NCBI GenBank assembly: GCA_019693395.1
Contig: JAAMXP010002228.1
Coordinates: 1-14,052, forward strand
Source of the DNA: Ettlia oleoabundans
Lineage: Eukaryota; Chlorophyta; Chlorophyceae; Chlamydomonadales
DNA: 14,052 nucleotides
Reading direction: 5' to 3'
A program made the translations under genes and the position numbers. Below are positions 4,139 to 13,506 of this stretch, piece by piece (position 1 is the stretch's first letter; the number at the start of each line of letters is the position of its first letter). The notes beneath the pieces were generated by a model, which saw only the letters and a program-made list of their open reading frames with translations, did no database searches and was not told the DNA's origin.

Positions 4139-5545
4139 TCAATTGCCGTTCGAATCCAACTGGATGGTCTCTCCAGGCTGGCAGGGAGGAAAGTCAAAGC
4201 CACAGGCGACCGCCAGGATGTGGGTGGCACCTTCGAAGTAGGCGGGGTCAAAGCCGCCAATGGGGAGCAGCTGCTGGTACTCCCTGCAGTACACGTGGGC
4301 AGGCACACAGCGGTGCAAGCAGTACAAAGATATTCATGGAGTGGCTGCCACAATGGGTGCAAAGGAAAGGCTCTAAAAAGACGTGAAGGACAATAAAGCT
4401 GTGCTGGTTCGAAGGCAAGCTGCTATTTTTAGTTGGCATTCTTTGTTGGCACAGACATATAGTGCAGGCTGAGACCTGGCAGGAGGCTTAACCGGCCAAG
4501 ATCGGCAGGGGCACGCGCGGGGGGGCACGCCAGGTGGCGTGCAGGTGGCGGCAGGCGAGCAGCGGGTACTTGCAGGCGTGCTGGCAGGCAGGCAGAGCTT
4601 CCCAATCAATCAATGTTATCAATTCATATTGCCGGCGGTAATAAGCTTACGGGTCGCAGGGGCATCGAGCGTCGCTGAAAGGCTTGAGCCCGTCGCAGCA
4701 GCTGGGGGCCGGCTGCGCCGCCGCCATCATGTTGAGGATGGCGGTATCGATCTGCTCCTGAGTGGGGGGTTCCTCGGAGCCACGGGGGTACACAAGGCTC
4801 ACTGCAGAGGTGGCAAAAGCATGGGAGCTAAGGTAGGGCAAGTCTCGGGGCAAGGCAGGGCAGGGCGGGGTGGGGCGGGCCATGCAAGCAGGCAAAGGGG
4901 GAGTCGAGGCGGCAGTGCAGGGTTGTACGCCACAAGAAAGGCAAAGGGAGCGGCCTGGTGGGTGCTGGAGGACATGATGGTACGAGCAGAGCAGAGCAAA
5001 GCAAAGCAAGTGGGTGCTGGAGGACATGATGGTGAGAGCAAAGCAAAGCAAGGCACAACAGGTTGAGCAGTGGTGGCCGCTGGCGATTTAGAATGGCAGT
5101 GGCGCGGGGAGGGGTCGAGGCAAGGTCCAGTTGTGCTATTCAGCAACCAGCTGTAATCTTGCTTGTTGCCACCTCCTTTTGTGTACACAACTGGCCTGTA
5201 CACAACTGGCCTAACGCGATGGACCTTGCAACACCGCAGCCTGATGCGCCCCCACTCACGTGTATCAGACTCCACTGTACAAGCCCGCCCAGCGGTGTTT
5301 GTCAGTTTGACGCATTGATCCACTGCTGGGCTGCCATATATGCTCTCAAATGGTGGTTCAAATGGTGGCGGCTCGCTGGGCGACTCTGCAGACGCCACCG
5401 CCTGTGCGTCGGGCGCAGGCCCGGGCGCTGCCTCAGGGCCCTCTGCTGCCTGCATCAGCCTCCTGGTTCCAGCAGCAGGCCCTGCCAGACAGAGTGCGGC
5501 AGCAGAAAGAAGGAGGAGGGCCAGGTGGCGCTGCAGCCCCGGCAT
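4139..5545 (-). CDS. Secreted eight-cysteine protein resembling non-specific lipid transfer proteins, three exons
   Basis: Complete gene on the minus strand. Exons 5545-5260, 4801-4651 and 4283-4139 join in phase (donors GTGAGT and GTAAGC, acceptors CTGCAG) and encode 193 aa ending in TGA. The start was chosen because it opens a clear signal peptide: MPGLQRH, a Leu/Ala core, then AGPAAG (about residues 1-26). Next is an Ala/Pro/Glu-rich linker to about residue 70. The mature part has exactly eight cysteines: C78, C89, C130-C131, C142-x-C144, C173, C180, that is C-x10-C-x40-CC-x10-CxC-x28-C-x6-C. This order (C, C, CC, CxC, C, C) defines the plant eight-cysteine motif of lipid transfer proteins, and the CC-to-end spacing is closest to type 2. 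Expected role: extracellular or wall-associated binding of lipid in a disulfide-linked helical bundle. The C2-CC gap of 40 is much longer than usual. Gene structure is secure; family assignment is moderate. Confidence 0.82.
4959..5056. repeat. 52-bp tandem repeat in intron 1 of the 8-Cys gene
   Basis: TGGGTGCTGGAGGACATGAT begins at 4959 and again at 5011. Both copies are followed by GAGCAAAGCAAAGCAA-type sequence. The whole repeat is inside the first intron (4802-5259) and carries no reading frame of its own. Confidence 0.85.
5182..5211. repeat. 15-bp perfect tandem repeat, two copies
   Basis: TGTACACAACTGGCC occurs at 5182-5196 and 5197-5211 without mismatch. It is within intron 1 of the minus-strand gene, about 50-80 bases past its 5' splice site. 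Confidence 0.9.
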
Positions 5546-7938: not shown

Positions 7939-10900
7939 ATGTGGCGTGCACACCTGCTGCTCGCCTGTCAACTGGCCGCAGTGGCGGCATCAGGCCTTGC
8001 GGCAGCGCAGCCCTCCAATGGAAGCGGCGACGGCGCAGGGGGCACGGCAAGCCAGGGCGGCGCCGCCAGGCAGAGCTTAGGGACGGAAGGGGGGCTTCCT
8101 GCTGCAGGGGACAGCGGTGGGGCCGCCCCAGGCCTGACCGCCCCATTCATGCAAGGCAGCAGACAGGTGGACGGTGAGTGGGCGGCGAACAAAGTGGCTC
8201 TAGGGAACCTATATGACGGTTTCCTCCACTTTTTTTTATTTCATTACCCATCAGCCATCATCAGCACGACCAGGCTTGCCCTTACCAACACACGTCCGGC
8301 TCGGAGCAGGCGCACCCTAATGAGTCCAAAAGCCGTTTTAAGCTCAAACGACTTTTGCGCTGCCCATACCCGCGCACGCCCGAGCGCACGCCCATCCTTC
8401 CCTTCCCTGCAGTGGAATCCCTGTTGGCGTTGCGCGACTCGGTGGAAAACTGGGTTGAGTTTTCTGAGGGCAACGGCTTCAGAGGCTGGAACCAAGCATC
8501 ACCGCTGTGCTCTTGGAGTGGGGTCACTTGTAGTGATGATGGCACCCTGCTGACTATGTGAGCATTGATGGTTACGAGTGGGGCTGGGCCGCGGTTTAGC
8601 TTGTTTGCAGGCCCAGTAAAAGGGGTGCGGCAGCAGGCCATTTCTTGCTTACACTATGAACGGCGAGTTGATGGTTTTGTTGCCTGCGAACAGTGACCAT
8701 GTGCCAAAGCGGGGCCCTACTCAGTTTGCCTCGCCCTTTTTTGGCAAAAATGGCTGGGCTGCGCACACGCAGATTTGCCTTTGAGCACAGCCAGCCTTGA
8801 CTCATGCACCAAACCGCTGACATGGTTGGCGCAGGTCGTGGCAGTGCCGTGCGTGCAAGGTGCGCGCTGTGGGCACGCTCCCAGCCGAGCTGGGCACCCT
8901 CCGCACCATCACAACCTTGGACCTGCAAAGCAACAGGTGGCTCCCCAGCTTTTGGCTGTTCATCGCACCACAAACGTTAGCTATCGTTCATTGCCGCGGG
9001 TCGGGGCCGTCGCCGCCTTTGCAGGTTTTTTACATACATAGGTTAGCTTCTCCTGCCTGCTGCCTGACCGACACCTCGTCTCTTGGCTGTGTGCAGCTTC
9101 CATGGCACTCTGCCGCCGCAGTGGGGCGATGTGGACATGTGGCCGCAGCTGCAAAACCTCTACCTGAACGACAACAACCTCACCGGCACCCTGCCTGACG
9201 TGAGTGCTAGCCTGCAGTACCAGCCAGCATTACCAGGCTGTAATGTCAAACTGTGACTGTGCCATGCTGGGCTGGCAGCTGTGCTGTGATTTGCCTGTCC
9301 CTCTGCTGGTGCTATGTCTCCTCTGGCTGTGTACATGGGAAGTTGGTATGGGTGTTTGCTTCGAGGCCCATGGATGCAACTGACGATCAATGGGTCGACC
9401 GGTCCGGCAGTGCTTGGGACTCGCAACCCCGCCTCAAGCAGCTGCTAAGCAAGAGGTGCAACATGTGAACCTTGGACAGCTTAGCCTAACAGCTTACCCA
9501 ATCTTCTTTTCTTGAGCGATTTAAGCGAGGGCTCGGGAGGGAGCAAGCAACCTCACCCCAAACCTGAATGCAAAATCCGCACAAATCGTTGTCTAACCTC
9601 CATCTGTGAAAGTGACTGAACCCTCTACTCTTCACTTCTTCGCAACATCACTCTACTGCAGGAGTGGGGGAATCCTGGAGCCATGCCTCACCTTCTGCAG
9701 CTGCGAGCCGACAGCAACCGACTGTGAGTCCACCTTCCCCTCTCACCACAATATTGCCATGCAAATGCTTCACTTTGTTTTGCTCTTCCTTGCTTGCTTT
9801 TCTTTGCATGTTGTGAGGGCCGTTTGTCTGTTACACCCATATGGAGCGCGTAATCGCTACATGGCCAGCCGTATTTGCAGCAACTGGAAGGAGCATGCAC
9901 CACACACAAGCATCTGTTGTAACACCTGTTGTCCCTGTTGCAGCACCGGCACGCTGCCCCAGAATTGGGGTAACGAGGAAACCGCCATGCGAGAACTTGG
10001 GGTCATGTAAGTCACCCAGCACCAGTCTGTGAACATAACAACTTGGGAACGTGGGCTATTATATATGAATGGTATGACTGGTATAACTGGTGGAGCTGTT
10101 GTAGGAGGGGCAGGCTGTGAGCATACCGCCTCTGCAGATGGCATGCGGCCAAGGCCGTCTTCTATTGCTGCACTTTGTCGCCACTTTGCCACCTTTGGCC
10201 TGTGCTTCCTTTCCCGTTACGACTGAAACAGACGTGGCACCTTACCATTACGTTTGAGATAGCTGCCTGCCGTCTATTCAATCGTAATGGTAAACTGCCA
10301 CATCTGTTTCAGTCGCACAAGGCATACGGTTTGTAACTTGTAGGCAGCTTTGTCCCTGTGTCTGTTCCAATTTGCATGCCTGAACGCAGCCAACGCATTG
10401 CGATTGCATCACCCCTACCACCACCACCACCACCCACCCACTCCCACCCTTGCCCCCTCATGTCTGCTCGCAGTCGCCTGTCCAACAACAGCCTTGAAGG
10501 TACTCTGCCAGAACAGGTAAGCTGGGGCGGAAGCTGATACGACGCAGTTTAACAGTGGCCAGACAGCAAAGGTGCCTTGAGCTCCGCATCCAAGCGCCTG
10601 CAGGAACACGAGCGGCTCATATCAGCACCAAAGTGGCCGGCGGCTTCTTGAAGCTGCCCTGCACCTCAGTGCAATACTCCTTGCCTCCCTCATTCACTGA
10701 GGCACTTCAACTGCCTCTACTCAGCTGCGAATGCTTTCCCTGTTTGCCCTCGCAGTGGGGCACTCCAGGCGCATTTACCCAGCTCTCGGTGCTTGCCCTC
10801 GACAGAAATCAAATTTCGGGCACGCTGCCGCAATTGTGGGGGGCACCTGCTGCCATGGCCTTCCTCCAAGAGCTGTGAGTGCTGCTTTTGCTGTTGCTTT

Positions 10901-13506
10901 GCTGTTGCTTTTTACGTTTTCCACACTCCTGTTCCCAGCTGCAATGGCTTGCTGCTGAAAAAAAAATTGGCCGGCTTCGGGCGGTTGTTGAAGTGGTGCT
11001 GGTGGGTAGGTGGGGTTGGGGGTCCGCTGCGTCAACGGGGCGGTGCCGGCGCTGGGCGGTGGCGGCGGCTAGCATAAGCTTGGCACGGGCACCAGCTGGG
11101 CTGGGTCTGTCGGTAGCCTCTCACAAAATGTAGGGCAATGTCTGCCCATCTGTACAGCCTGTTGCGAGGCTTGACAAGCGGCCGGCTGCTGCTGCCCCTT
11201 GCCGTCTGGTGCCGCAGGTATTTGCAGAGCAACCGGTTGACCGGCGGGCTGCCTTCCACCTGGGGTTCCATCGACAACTTCCCACGCCTGCGCTTCTTGT
11301 TCGTGGCCAACAATCAGCTGGGAGGTGGGCGGGGACGCGGCTGCCGGCAGGAACTACTTGTCATATCCGGTGTCTGTGTGTTGTGCCCGCAGAACTCCTT
11401 AGCGTTGCATGACCAATCGTCACGTGGCATATCTGTGCGCGCCACCACGGCTGTCCACGGCGATGTGTGCAGGGGGCGTGGGTGTGCCCCGTTCTGTGGC
11501 ATGCACCCAGGCCCTAAACCTCAATGTCCTCAATGTGACGCAGTTGTTGCAACACACTGAAGTTCAAAAGATACACGCCCCTACCCGCATGCAGGCACCC
11601 TCCCGGCAGAGTGGGGCCGCAAGAAATCTTTCCCGGTGCTGAAAACGCTGTGAGTAGTGATCAGCCGCCGCTGAATGCAACCACAGCATGCATTTCATGT
11701 CCTTACTAGGGGTGCCCTGTGATAAAAACGCTGTGAGTAGTGATCAGCCGCCGCTGAGTGCAGCCACAGCATGCATTTCATGTTCTTGCTGGAGGTGGCC
11801 TGCGCTCAAAAGGCAGTTCACTACTCATAGGCTGCGAGTAGTGGGCCGCCGCTCAGTCCAGCCACATCAAGCCCGTTGTGTCATCACTGGACCTCAGTTG
11901 TTTTGTCATCACTTCACCATTGACAATATGCATGGGGCTCGACCCTGTTGGTGCACCCTTGTGCTGGCCTTGAATGACACATATTTTGCACACTCCACCT
12001 GCAAGTGCTAATGGCCTCGCCGTGCCACGACGGCGGCACCATCTTCTACCGCCCTCTATGCGCAAATGTCGCCCACATGATCGAATGAGCTGTCCGACGG
12101 CCGTACCATTCTGCGATGCACGTAACATACAGCTGTACTGTAACGTTGTACTGCACCACCGTACTGCAGGGACATGAATAACACGGGGGTGTACGGCACG
12201 CTACCACCAGAGTGGGGTGACGTTTCTGCCATGGCGCAGCTTGACGCCATGTGAGAAACCCCCCTGCAGCTGCCTGTCAGCCCCCCCGTCCCTGCCTGCC
12301 TGCCTGCCTGCCTGCAGTTCTTCCCTGCCTGCCAGCCTGCCTGCCAGCCTGCCCGCGGTTCTTGCCTGGCTTCCGGCCCTCTCGTCTGCCTGTTAGGGCA
12401 CTCCCGCTTGCCACCCCTTTTGCTGCACTTGCATGCGCCACTTGGCCTTCCTGCCAGTGCCCACATAGCACCTGCATGCACCACTGCTATGGCCCTTCCC
12501 CCAGCGGAGTTTGCACCACCCTTTTACTTAAACATTTTTCTCCGCCTATAGGCTGGCTAGCCAGCTAACAGCACACAACTTAGTCCAAGATTGGACGGGA
12601 AGCAACATGTGCTGCGATACCATGCCATGCCATGCCATGCCATGCCATGCCATGCCCTGGAATGCCTCGCGGCGGTTCAAATTGCACCTTCTTTGCGCCC
12701 TATTTGCAAACCGTATTTCCCTTCAAATTCTCCCTTTGCAGGCGCCTTGAACGCAACGATCTGTCGGGGTCCATCCCCCAGGAGTGGCTGGGCTTTGAAA
12801 CCCTCTCACGTCTCATCATCAAGCCAGGCAACCCGCGCCTGTGCGGCCAGCCACCACCCGACCTGCCCTTCTCACGTGAGTAAGGATGGACAGGATTGGG
12901 TCATTGCATTGCAGTATGACAGGGTCCTGACTCTGCATATTTTATGGAGCTTACCCCCACCCCCACCCCCCAATTCGCTATATAACAATTACTCGACGTT
13001 TGCAATTTCTGAGCTGCTTGTTCGCCGCACCCCGCCACTCCATCCACCCCCACCTTCCTCCTGCAGTGTGCGATGACAGGGACCTGACCTGCCTGCGCAT
13101 CCCGGTAGATCTCAACGACACCTGCGGACCCATACTGGCCCCACCCCGTACCCCGGCTGCTGAGGCTGACGTGTCGCCGGCACCGGGCGGCGCCACCCCT
13201 GGGACAGCTGTTGAAGGCGCAGAGGTTTCCCCCCCTGCAGCTGCATCACAGGCTGCCCCCTGGGACGGCGGCACCAGCGCTAGTGCTGGCGGCGGCGGTG
13301 ACAGCGACGGCGGCGGCAGCGGCGGCGGTGGGCCCAACGTTGGTGCGATAGTCGGGGGCGTCGTTGGCGGCGCGGTGGCGGCGGCTCTCGTGGCAGCACT
13401 TGTAGCGCTATTATTGGGCAGGAAGCGGAGGAAACAAGAGGGGACTGGCCGAGTGGAAAAGTACAAGCCGTCCGTCCGCCCATTCATCTCAGAGGTGTGC
13501 GGCTAG
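7939..13506 (+). CDS. LRR receptor-like membrane protein, ten 27-residue GTLPxxWG repeats, 13 exons
   Basis: Exons: 7939-8173, 8413-8557, 8835-8936, 9097-9199, 9662-9723, 9944-10006, 10474-10516, 10756-10874, 11218-11324, 11595-11649, 12170-12250, 12742-12875, 13067-13506. Every junction is GT-AG and in phase, giving 562 aa. Domains: signal peptide MWRAHLLLACQLAAVAASG (about 1-24); Gly/Ser-rich linker (25-78); LRR N-cap with GWNQASPLCSWSGVTC (about 79-127); ten LRRs beginning near residues 140, 164, 191, 218, 246, 273, 300, 327, 354 and 381; C-cap GNPRLCGQPP; Cys-containing segment; Pro/Ala/Gly-rich stalk (about 437-507); transmembrane helix 508-533; stop-transfer RKRRK; short cytosolic tail. 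The outside part probably binds a ligand or partner protein. There is no kinase in this model. The least certain junction is the start of exon 3 (8835). The 3' end could also splice onward from 13494. Confidence 0.92.
10220..10315 (+). repeat. Intronic foldback hairpin with 33-bp arms (MITE-like or small-RNA-precursor-like)
   Basis: The arm at 10220-10252 starts CGACTGAAACAGA and ends TTACCATTACG. The arm at 10283-10315 is its reverse complement with three mismatches (30 of 33 paired). The loop is 30 nt. It sits wholly inside LRR intron 10007-10473, in the sense strand. No convincing target-site duplication flanks it. It could be a miniature inverted-repeat transposable element or a small-RNA hairpin. 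Confidence 0.88.
10418..10447 (+). repeat. (CCA)n/(CCCA)n microsatellite
   Basis: A run of CCA units followed by CCCA-like units in the pyrimidine-rich part of LRR intron 10007-10473, about 30 bases before its GCAG acceptor. It probably also serves as the polypyrimidine-like tract. Confidence 0.75.
11642..11866 (+). repeat. 83-bp tandem duplication copying the end of LRR exon 10 and its 5' splice site
   Basis: The block from 11642 (AAAACGCTGTGAGTAGTGAT, with the real donor GT at 11650) is repeated 83 bases later (donor copy GT at 11733), with few differences over the first 60 bases. A shorter third copy at 11831-11866 reads GCTGCGAGTAGT, so its donor-like site is GC rather than GT. The first donor fits the reading frame into the exon at 12170. 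Because 83 is not a multiple of three, the second would shift the frame. Confidence 0.9.
12296..12357 (+). repeat. (CCTG)n-rich low-complexity block
   Basis: Consecutive CCTG units, then diverged CCTGCCAG units, inside LRR intron 12251-12741. It is a simple-sequence repeat with no coding meaning; open frames through it are artefacts. Confidence 0.85.
12621..12655 (+). repeat. (CATGC)7 pentanucleotide microsatellite
   Basis: Seven perfect CATGC units in LRR intron 12251-12741, about 85 bases before the acceptor. Likely length-polymorphic. Confidence 0.95.

Follow-up and report, generated by a model that had tools for sequence, protein, structure and literature searches.

Non-specific lipid transfer proteins (nsLTPs) have long been cited as a typical innovation of land plants, and a locus in the green alga Ettlia oleoabundans raises the question of whether a chlorophyte also encodes a member of this family. 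The locus lies on the minus strand at positions 4139-5545 of a 14,052-nucleotide stretch (contig JAAMXP010002228.1, assembly GCA_019693395.1; referred to here as the window), in which the original prediction, made from the sequence alone, had described a spliced, lipid-transfer-like protein with eight mature cysteines. The observation is confirmed here and the interpretation placed on it is partly supported: the gene very probably codes for a helical protein that is secreted, is stabilised by disulfides and belongs among the nsLTPs, specifically the algal type AI of Huang et al. 2023 (PMC9832785).

Gene structure and cysteine spacing

Enumeration of splice-site combinations on the minus strand reproduced the predicted 193-residue product from three exons (Table 1). 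Both introns have consensus sites, with donor CAC/GTGAGT (intron from 5259) and acceptor CTCTGCAG (to 4802) for intron 1, and donor CCC/GTAAGC (4650) and acceptor ACTGCAG (4284) for intron 2. Among the combinations enumerated, the alternative junction pair 5255/4798 also gives 193 residues, the change being confined to the junction and every cysteine kept. Four annotated relatives are continuous across both junctions, reading SDTLSLVFPRG and CPCDAGYQQLLP in Chlorella variabilis, whose protein is 84% identical to exon 3 over 43 residues. Exon-1 read-through open reading frames of relatives also mark the intron 1 site: five of the six (P0007, P0008, P0009, P0015 and P0019) diverge from the protein directly after VESDT, which is that site, and in P0020 the agreement runs three residues past it.

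The mature cysteines follow the spacing C-x10-C-x40-CC-x10-CPC-x28-C-x6-C (residues 78, 89, 130, 131, 142, 144, 173 and 180), with a ninth at residue 19 inside a putative signal peptide. The predicted order C-C-CC-CxC-C-C is therefore present, and the eight-cysteine motif of nsLTPs (8CM; C-Xn-C-Xn-CC-Xn-CXC-Xn-C-Xn-C) is found in all seven full-length sequences, namely the window protein, a paralogue on another contig of the same genome (C188b) and relatives P0001-P0005. The spacing is identical in all seven, as are the 40-residue gap between C2 and C3 and the Pro in the X position of CXC. When the residues of the window protein were shuffled, a loose eight-cysteine pattern arose in 157 of 200,000 trials; the exact conservation across the seven sequences is the stronger evidence against chance. 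The N-terminus is hydrophobic in the window protein and in P0001-P0005, with a putative signal peptide at approximately residues 1-26 (judged by eye); cut after residue 26, the window protein has a mass of 17.5 kDa. Its isoelectric point (pI) is 4.05.

Paralogue C188b has the same phases at both introns, and over 117 domain codons the nonsynonymous and synonymous divergences between it and the window gene (dN/dS) are 0.20/1.21 by NG86 and 0.22/0.98 by YN00, a ratio of ~0.17-0.23. Because relatives cross the junctions, the spacing is identical in seven of seven sequences and dN/dS is this low, the window gene is under constraint. A wrong gene model or a pseudogene is scarcely credible, given the four relatives that cross both junctions, the paralogue with identical intron phases and a dN/dS far below 1. 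A TGTAA polyadenylation signal was sought in the 539 bases 3' of the stop and none was present.

Relation to the lipid transfer protein family

A search of 5.8 billion proteins (598 candidates, E <= 1) gave four relatives, every one from Chlorella or Micractinium and 59-68% identical over the alignment: C. variabilis CHLNCDRAFT_133696, C. vulgaris D9Q98_010204, and Micractinium ABPG75_004578 and ABPG77_005196. These share the cysteine spacing of the window protein and differ from it in the lengths of the N-terminal spacer and tail, and the UniRef names of both Chlorella proteins start with 'Bifunctional inhibitor/pla...'. A profile search, in which only the 7992 candidates with most shared words were scored, gave 15 matches, adding P0005 and shorter fragments, while a search with the domain alone, aimed at relatives in Chlamydomonas or Coccomyxa, gave 19 matches consisting of close relatives and exon fragments, the four with an organism name again all being from Chlorella or Micractinium. 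No relative named from Chlamydomonas appeared in these three protein searches (full protein, profile and domain alone). A bacterial or viral origin of the gene was rejected on account of its introns and eukaryotic relatives.

Profile hidden Markov models of Pfam point to PF00234, the Protease inhibitor/seed storage/LTP family (cut-off 21.7 bits). Two of the five relatives scanned pass this cut-off (C. variabilis P0001 at 22.1 bits and C. vulgaris P0004 at 22.8); of the other three, one falls under it and the remaining pair gave no match at E <= 1, and the window protein itself scores 15.6 bits as a whole and 17.4 bits for its C-terminal 96 residues. When domain sequences were scanned at E <= 10, PF00234 was matched by five of seven (best E 1.5e-5), LTP_2 weakly by two and UBA2_C by one (E 0.13). 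These results support a resemblance to LTP/seed-storage proteins, and the best protein matches place the alga near Chlorella, plausibly within the Chlorellaceae.

In a profile comparison by hhalign, type 2 LTPs (three solved sequences) gave a probability of 58.3% and a score of 28.5, and CC, CxC, C7 and C8 aligned in register. Type 1 LTPs (five sequences) gave 5.5% and a score of 20.2. In a control scored against the type 2 profile, the cysteine columns were held fixed and the remaining columns shuffled; one of 150 shuffles was as good as the real alignment (best 29.9), and a second run of 600 produced no equal (mean 13.2, standard deviation 3.4, best 26.4). Since cysteine-fixed shuffles rarely equal the real score, the likeness to type 2 LTPs exceeds cysteine order, albeit to a modest degree.

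The proposed closeness to type 2, relative to type 1, is supported. In common with land-plant type 2 nsLTPs (rice 1l6h; 1n89), which are its best profile match, the window protein has the 8CM order, C7-x6-C8 and a CG-x3-P-x-C ending. However, its C2-C3 gap is 40 residues against 13 in rice 1l6h, with 28 against 23 for C6-C7 and 10 against 7 for C1-C2, and its precursor is 193 residues long whereas mature type 2 proteins have ~70. Under the type 1 and type 2 criteria as given in PMC5052319, type 2 calls for a bulky hydrophobic residue within CXC and an intronless gene; the window protein has Pro where rice has Phe, and its gene has two introns where type 2 genes are described as having none (PMC9832785).

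The resemblance could instead be convergent; the gene would then encode an unrelated helical protein, rich in cysteines and secreted by the alga, whose cysteine order agrees by chance. Several results count towards this and weigh against the nsLTP assignment: the window protein lies under the Pfam cut-off, its insertion is long, PDB sequence searches returned no relevant match and fold matches are weak. For two relatives AlphaFold gives confident helical models, with predicted local distance difference test (pLDDT) values of 80-96 per ten-residue block over the cysteine domain and mostly low confidence in the N-terminal spacer. Solved LTPs align with the models from C1 to ~C8 at 3.6-4.0 Å, which counts for the nsLTP kind, but the match is weak and elicitins match about as well. 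Against convergence stand the type 2 likeness beyond the cysteines recorded by both shuffle runs, the correspondence of CGFDFPPC with CGIALPTC of rice LTP2, and the two relatives that pass a curated LTP-family cut-off. The cysteine-fixed control leans towards shared origin, as far as alignment scores can tell, and convergence is judged to be quite improbable. It is also unlikely that the protein belongs to another eight-cysteine group (2S-albumin-like, amylase/trypsin-inhibitor-like or hybrid proline-rich) and carries no lipid; the profile comparison covered type 1 and type 2 LTPs.

As a protein of the nsLTP kind, the product would be exported from the cell by its signal peptide, and the Pro/Ala-rich spacer ahead of the domain is, from its composition, probably flexible. 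By analogy with the family, the eight-cysteine domain would form a small helical bundle with four disulfides, among them the C2-C3 and C4-C7 pairs of nsLTPs, and a hydrophobic cavity, which may carry long-chain lipids across the wall space. The C2-C3 stretch, ~27 residues longer than that of the rice type 2 LTP, is conserved and is predicted to contain an extra helix.

Family loci and genomic surroundings

A search of the Ettlia genome (32.9 Mb, 1230 contigs) with the C. variabilis protein gave 17 exon-level matches at E <= 10. Besides the window gene, the family has four loci that are close to it and four that are more divergent (Table 1), all exon-level sightings apart from the window gene and C188b, for which full models were built. 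C188b has the same cysteine spacing as the window gene. The tandem C634 copies have a PRGS-ELPT element in common with the window gene and seem, like that gene, to be interrupted by an intron following CGC. Weak matches occurred on C901, C478 and C740 (E 0.19-0.87), and one on C146 was dropped because three motifs were all missing from the strand of the match. A scan of the same genome with PF00234 produced a single weak match, at 17.8 bits on C1113 and under the cut-off (the control matched in 0 of 14 genomes), and Pfam LTP_2 gave none, which is uninformative given that its control also matched in 0 of 14 genomes.

Table 1. Parts of the window gene and family loci elsewhere in the genome (window positions unless a contig is named).
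Feature	Position	Strand	Description
Exon 1	5260..5545	-	Begins with start codon and putative signal peptide, followed by spacer rich in Pro/Ala and by C1 and C2; boundary inside codon after VESDT; conserved in relatives
Pro/Ala-rich N-terminal spacer before C1	5315..5467	-	Residues 27-77 (51 residues); 21.6% Pro, 19.6% Ala, 5.9% Gly
Intron 1	4802..5259	-	458 bases, phase 1, between C2 and C3; GTGAGT...CTGCAG; phase same in C188b
Exon 2	4651..4801	-	Remainder of long C2-C3 segment (YPRGSEEPPT...), then CC and CPC
Intron 2	4284..4650	-	367 bases, phase 2, between C6 and C7; GTAAGC...TGCAG; phase same in C188b
Exon 3	4139..4283	-	YQQLLPIGGFDPAYFEGATHILAVACGFDFPPC with C7 and C8, C-terminal tail; stop at 4139-4141
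Close locus	C188 ~6.6-7.4 kb		Exons 1 and 2 seen
Close locus	C188 ~8.4-8.7 kb		Exon 1 only
Close locus	C188 ~15.0-16.0 kb		All three exons
Close locus	C245		Exons 2 and 3
Divergent subfamily	C634:1500-9500	-	Four tandem copies; C-x10-C, FPRGSSELPT, C-x-CC...CGC

Intron 1 contains a duplicated segment (gtgggtgctggaggacatgatggt) with AGCAA-rich repeats at 4957-5040, recognised by eye. Positions 1-2633 of the plus strand probably hold the end of a gene for a protein kinase (LVTEYMEGGNLA... and DGTAKIGDVGMAKI by eye; PF07714 below cut-off). Positions 7939-13506, also on the plus strand, hold leucine-rich repeat (LRR) receptor-like exons, with LRRNT_2 at 31.4 bits (cut-off 20.7) within 8355-8558, further pieces resembling LRRs that were seen by eye or scored below cut-off, and a transmembrane-like segment at ~13348-13428. 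The LTP gene is thus flanked by two receptor-like genes, both on the strand opposite to its own. A role for its product as an LRR-receptor ligand was considered and rejected, the neighbours being the sole hint.

Place among algal lipid transfer proteins

According to the original prediction, surveys have treated nsLTPs as missing from chlorophytes, which is the view of Edstam et al. 2011, who according to a May 2023 review (PMC10215178) detected no member in green algae. That review states that its own analysis saw no green-algal nsLTP, and its table includes, from another study, a count of one for Chlamydomonas. This view is outdated: Huang et al. 2023 report 29 nsLTP genes, drawn from 12 chlorophytes and the charophyte Klebsormidium, a 2025 review (PMC12480973) accepts an algal nsLTP lineage, and PMC12985213 mentions CrLTP. 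Among the papers listed in literature searches, PMC9832785 was the only one with algal nsLTPs as the subject of its title or abstract. It describes CrLTP2 of Chlamydomonas as binding C20-C24 fatty acids, protease-resistant in vitro and expressed in late zygotes. Table 1 of the same paper assigns two nsLTPs to Chlorella variabilis and none to 'Chlorella NC64A', both under assembly GCA_000147415.1.

Set beside the published description of group AI (for example CrLTP1 and CrLTP2), the window protein agrees in 8CM order, in its long C2-C3 gap and in the Pro of C5XC6, the group being characterised by an extended C2-C3 region and Pro or Ser in CXC. A long C2-C3 gap, originally regarded as unusual, is shared with this group. 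Algal nsLTP genes are described as having introns within the 8CM, as does the window gene (two, at C2-C3 and C6-C7), although the CrLTPs have five introns. The Pro-rich N-terminal spacer with turn-forming residues, a mass within 10-25 kDa and an acidic character are likewise shared; reported algal values span 10.36-50.28 kDa and pI 4.11-10.28, mostly low, and the window pI is marginally below that range, although pI programs differ. The number of family loci exceeds the usual one or two reported per species, with eight in Coccomyxa C-169. A further difference lies at C7-C8, where the gap of six is under the search range of n = 8-50 stated in PMC9832785, which would exclude all seven sequences; this wording may be loose, as the rice type 2 LTP also has six residues there.

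Green-algal nsLTPs have been in print since 2023, and the gene extends a known family and does not found a new one. What is new is modest, namely a branch in the Chlorellaceae whose insertion is conserved, and the enlargement of the family in this genome. More tentatively, and with less than even confidence, the Chlorellaceae proteins could constitute an undescribed, expanded 8CM branch. Its marks would be a fixed ~27-residue C2-C3 element (PRGSEE-PT...), predicted to form a helix of its own, and a C7-x6-C8 ending like that of type 2, along with another tandem subfamily in the same genome that has diverged. If so, this branch would fall outside the stated pattern of the published survey, and algal nsLTP diversity would have been undercounted. 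Chlorophyte members would push the origin of eight-cysteine lipid carriers back to the green-plant ancestor, or else raise the question of convergence; to this the gene contributes a Chlorellaceae branch that is conserved and under selection, with introns at fixed places and a conserved insertion in the loop, which would be useful for testing that origin by structure.
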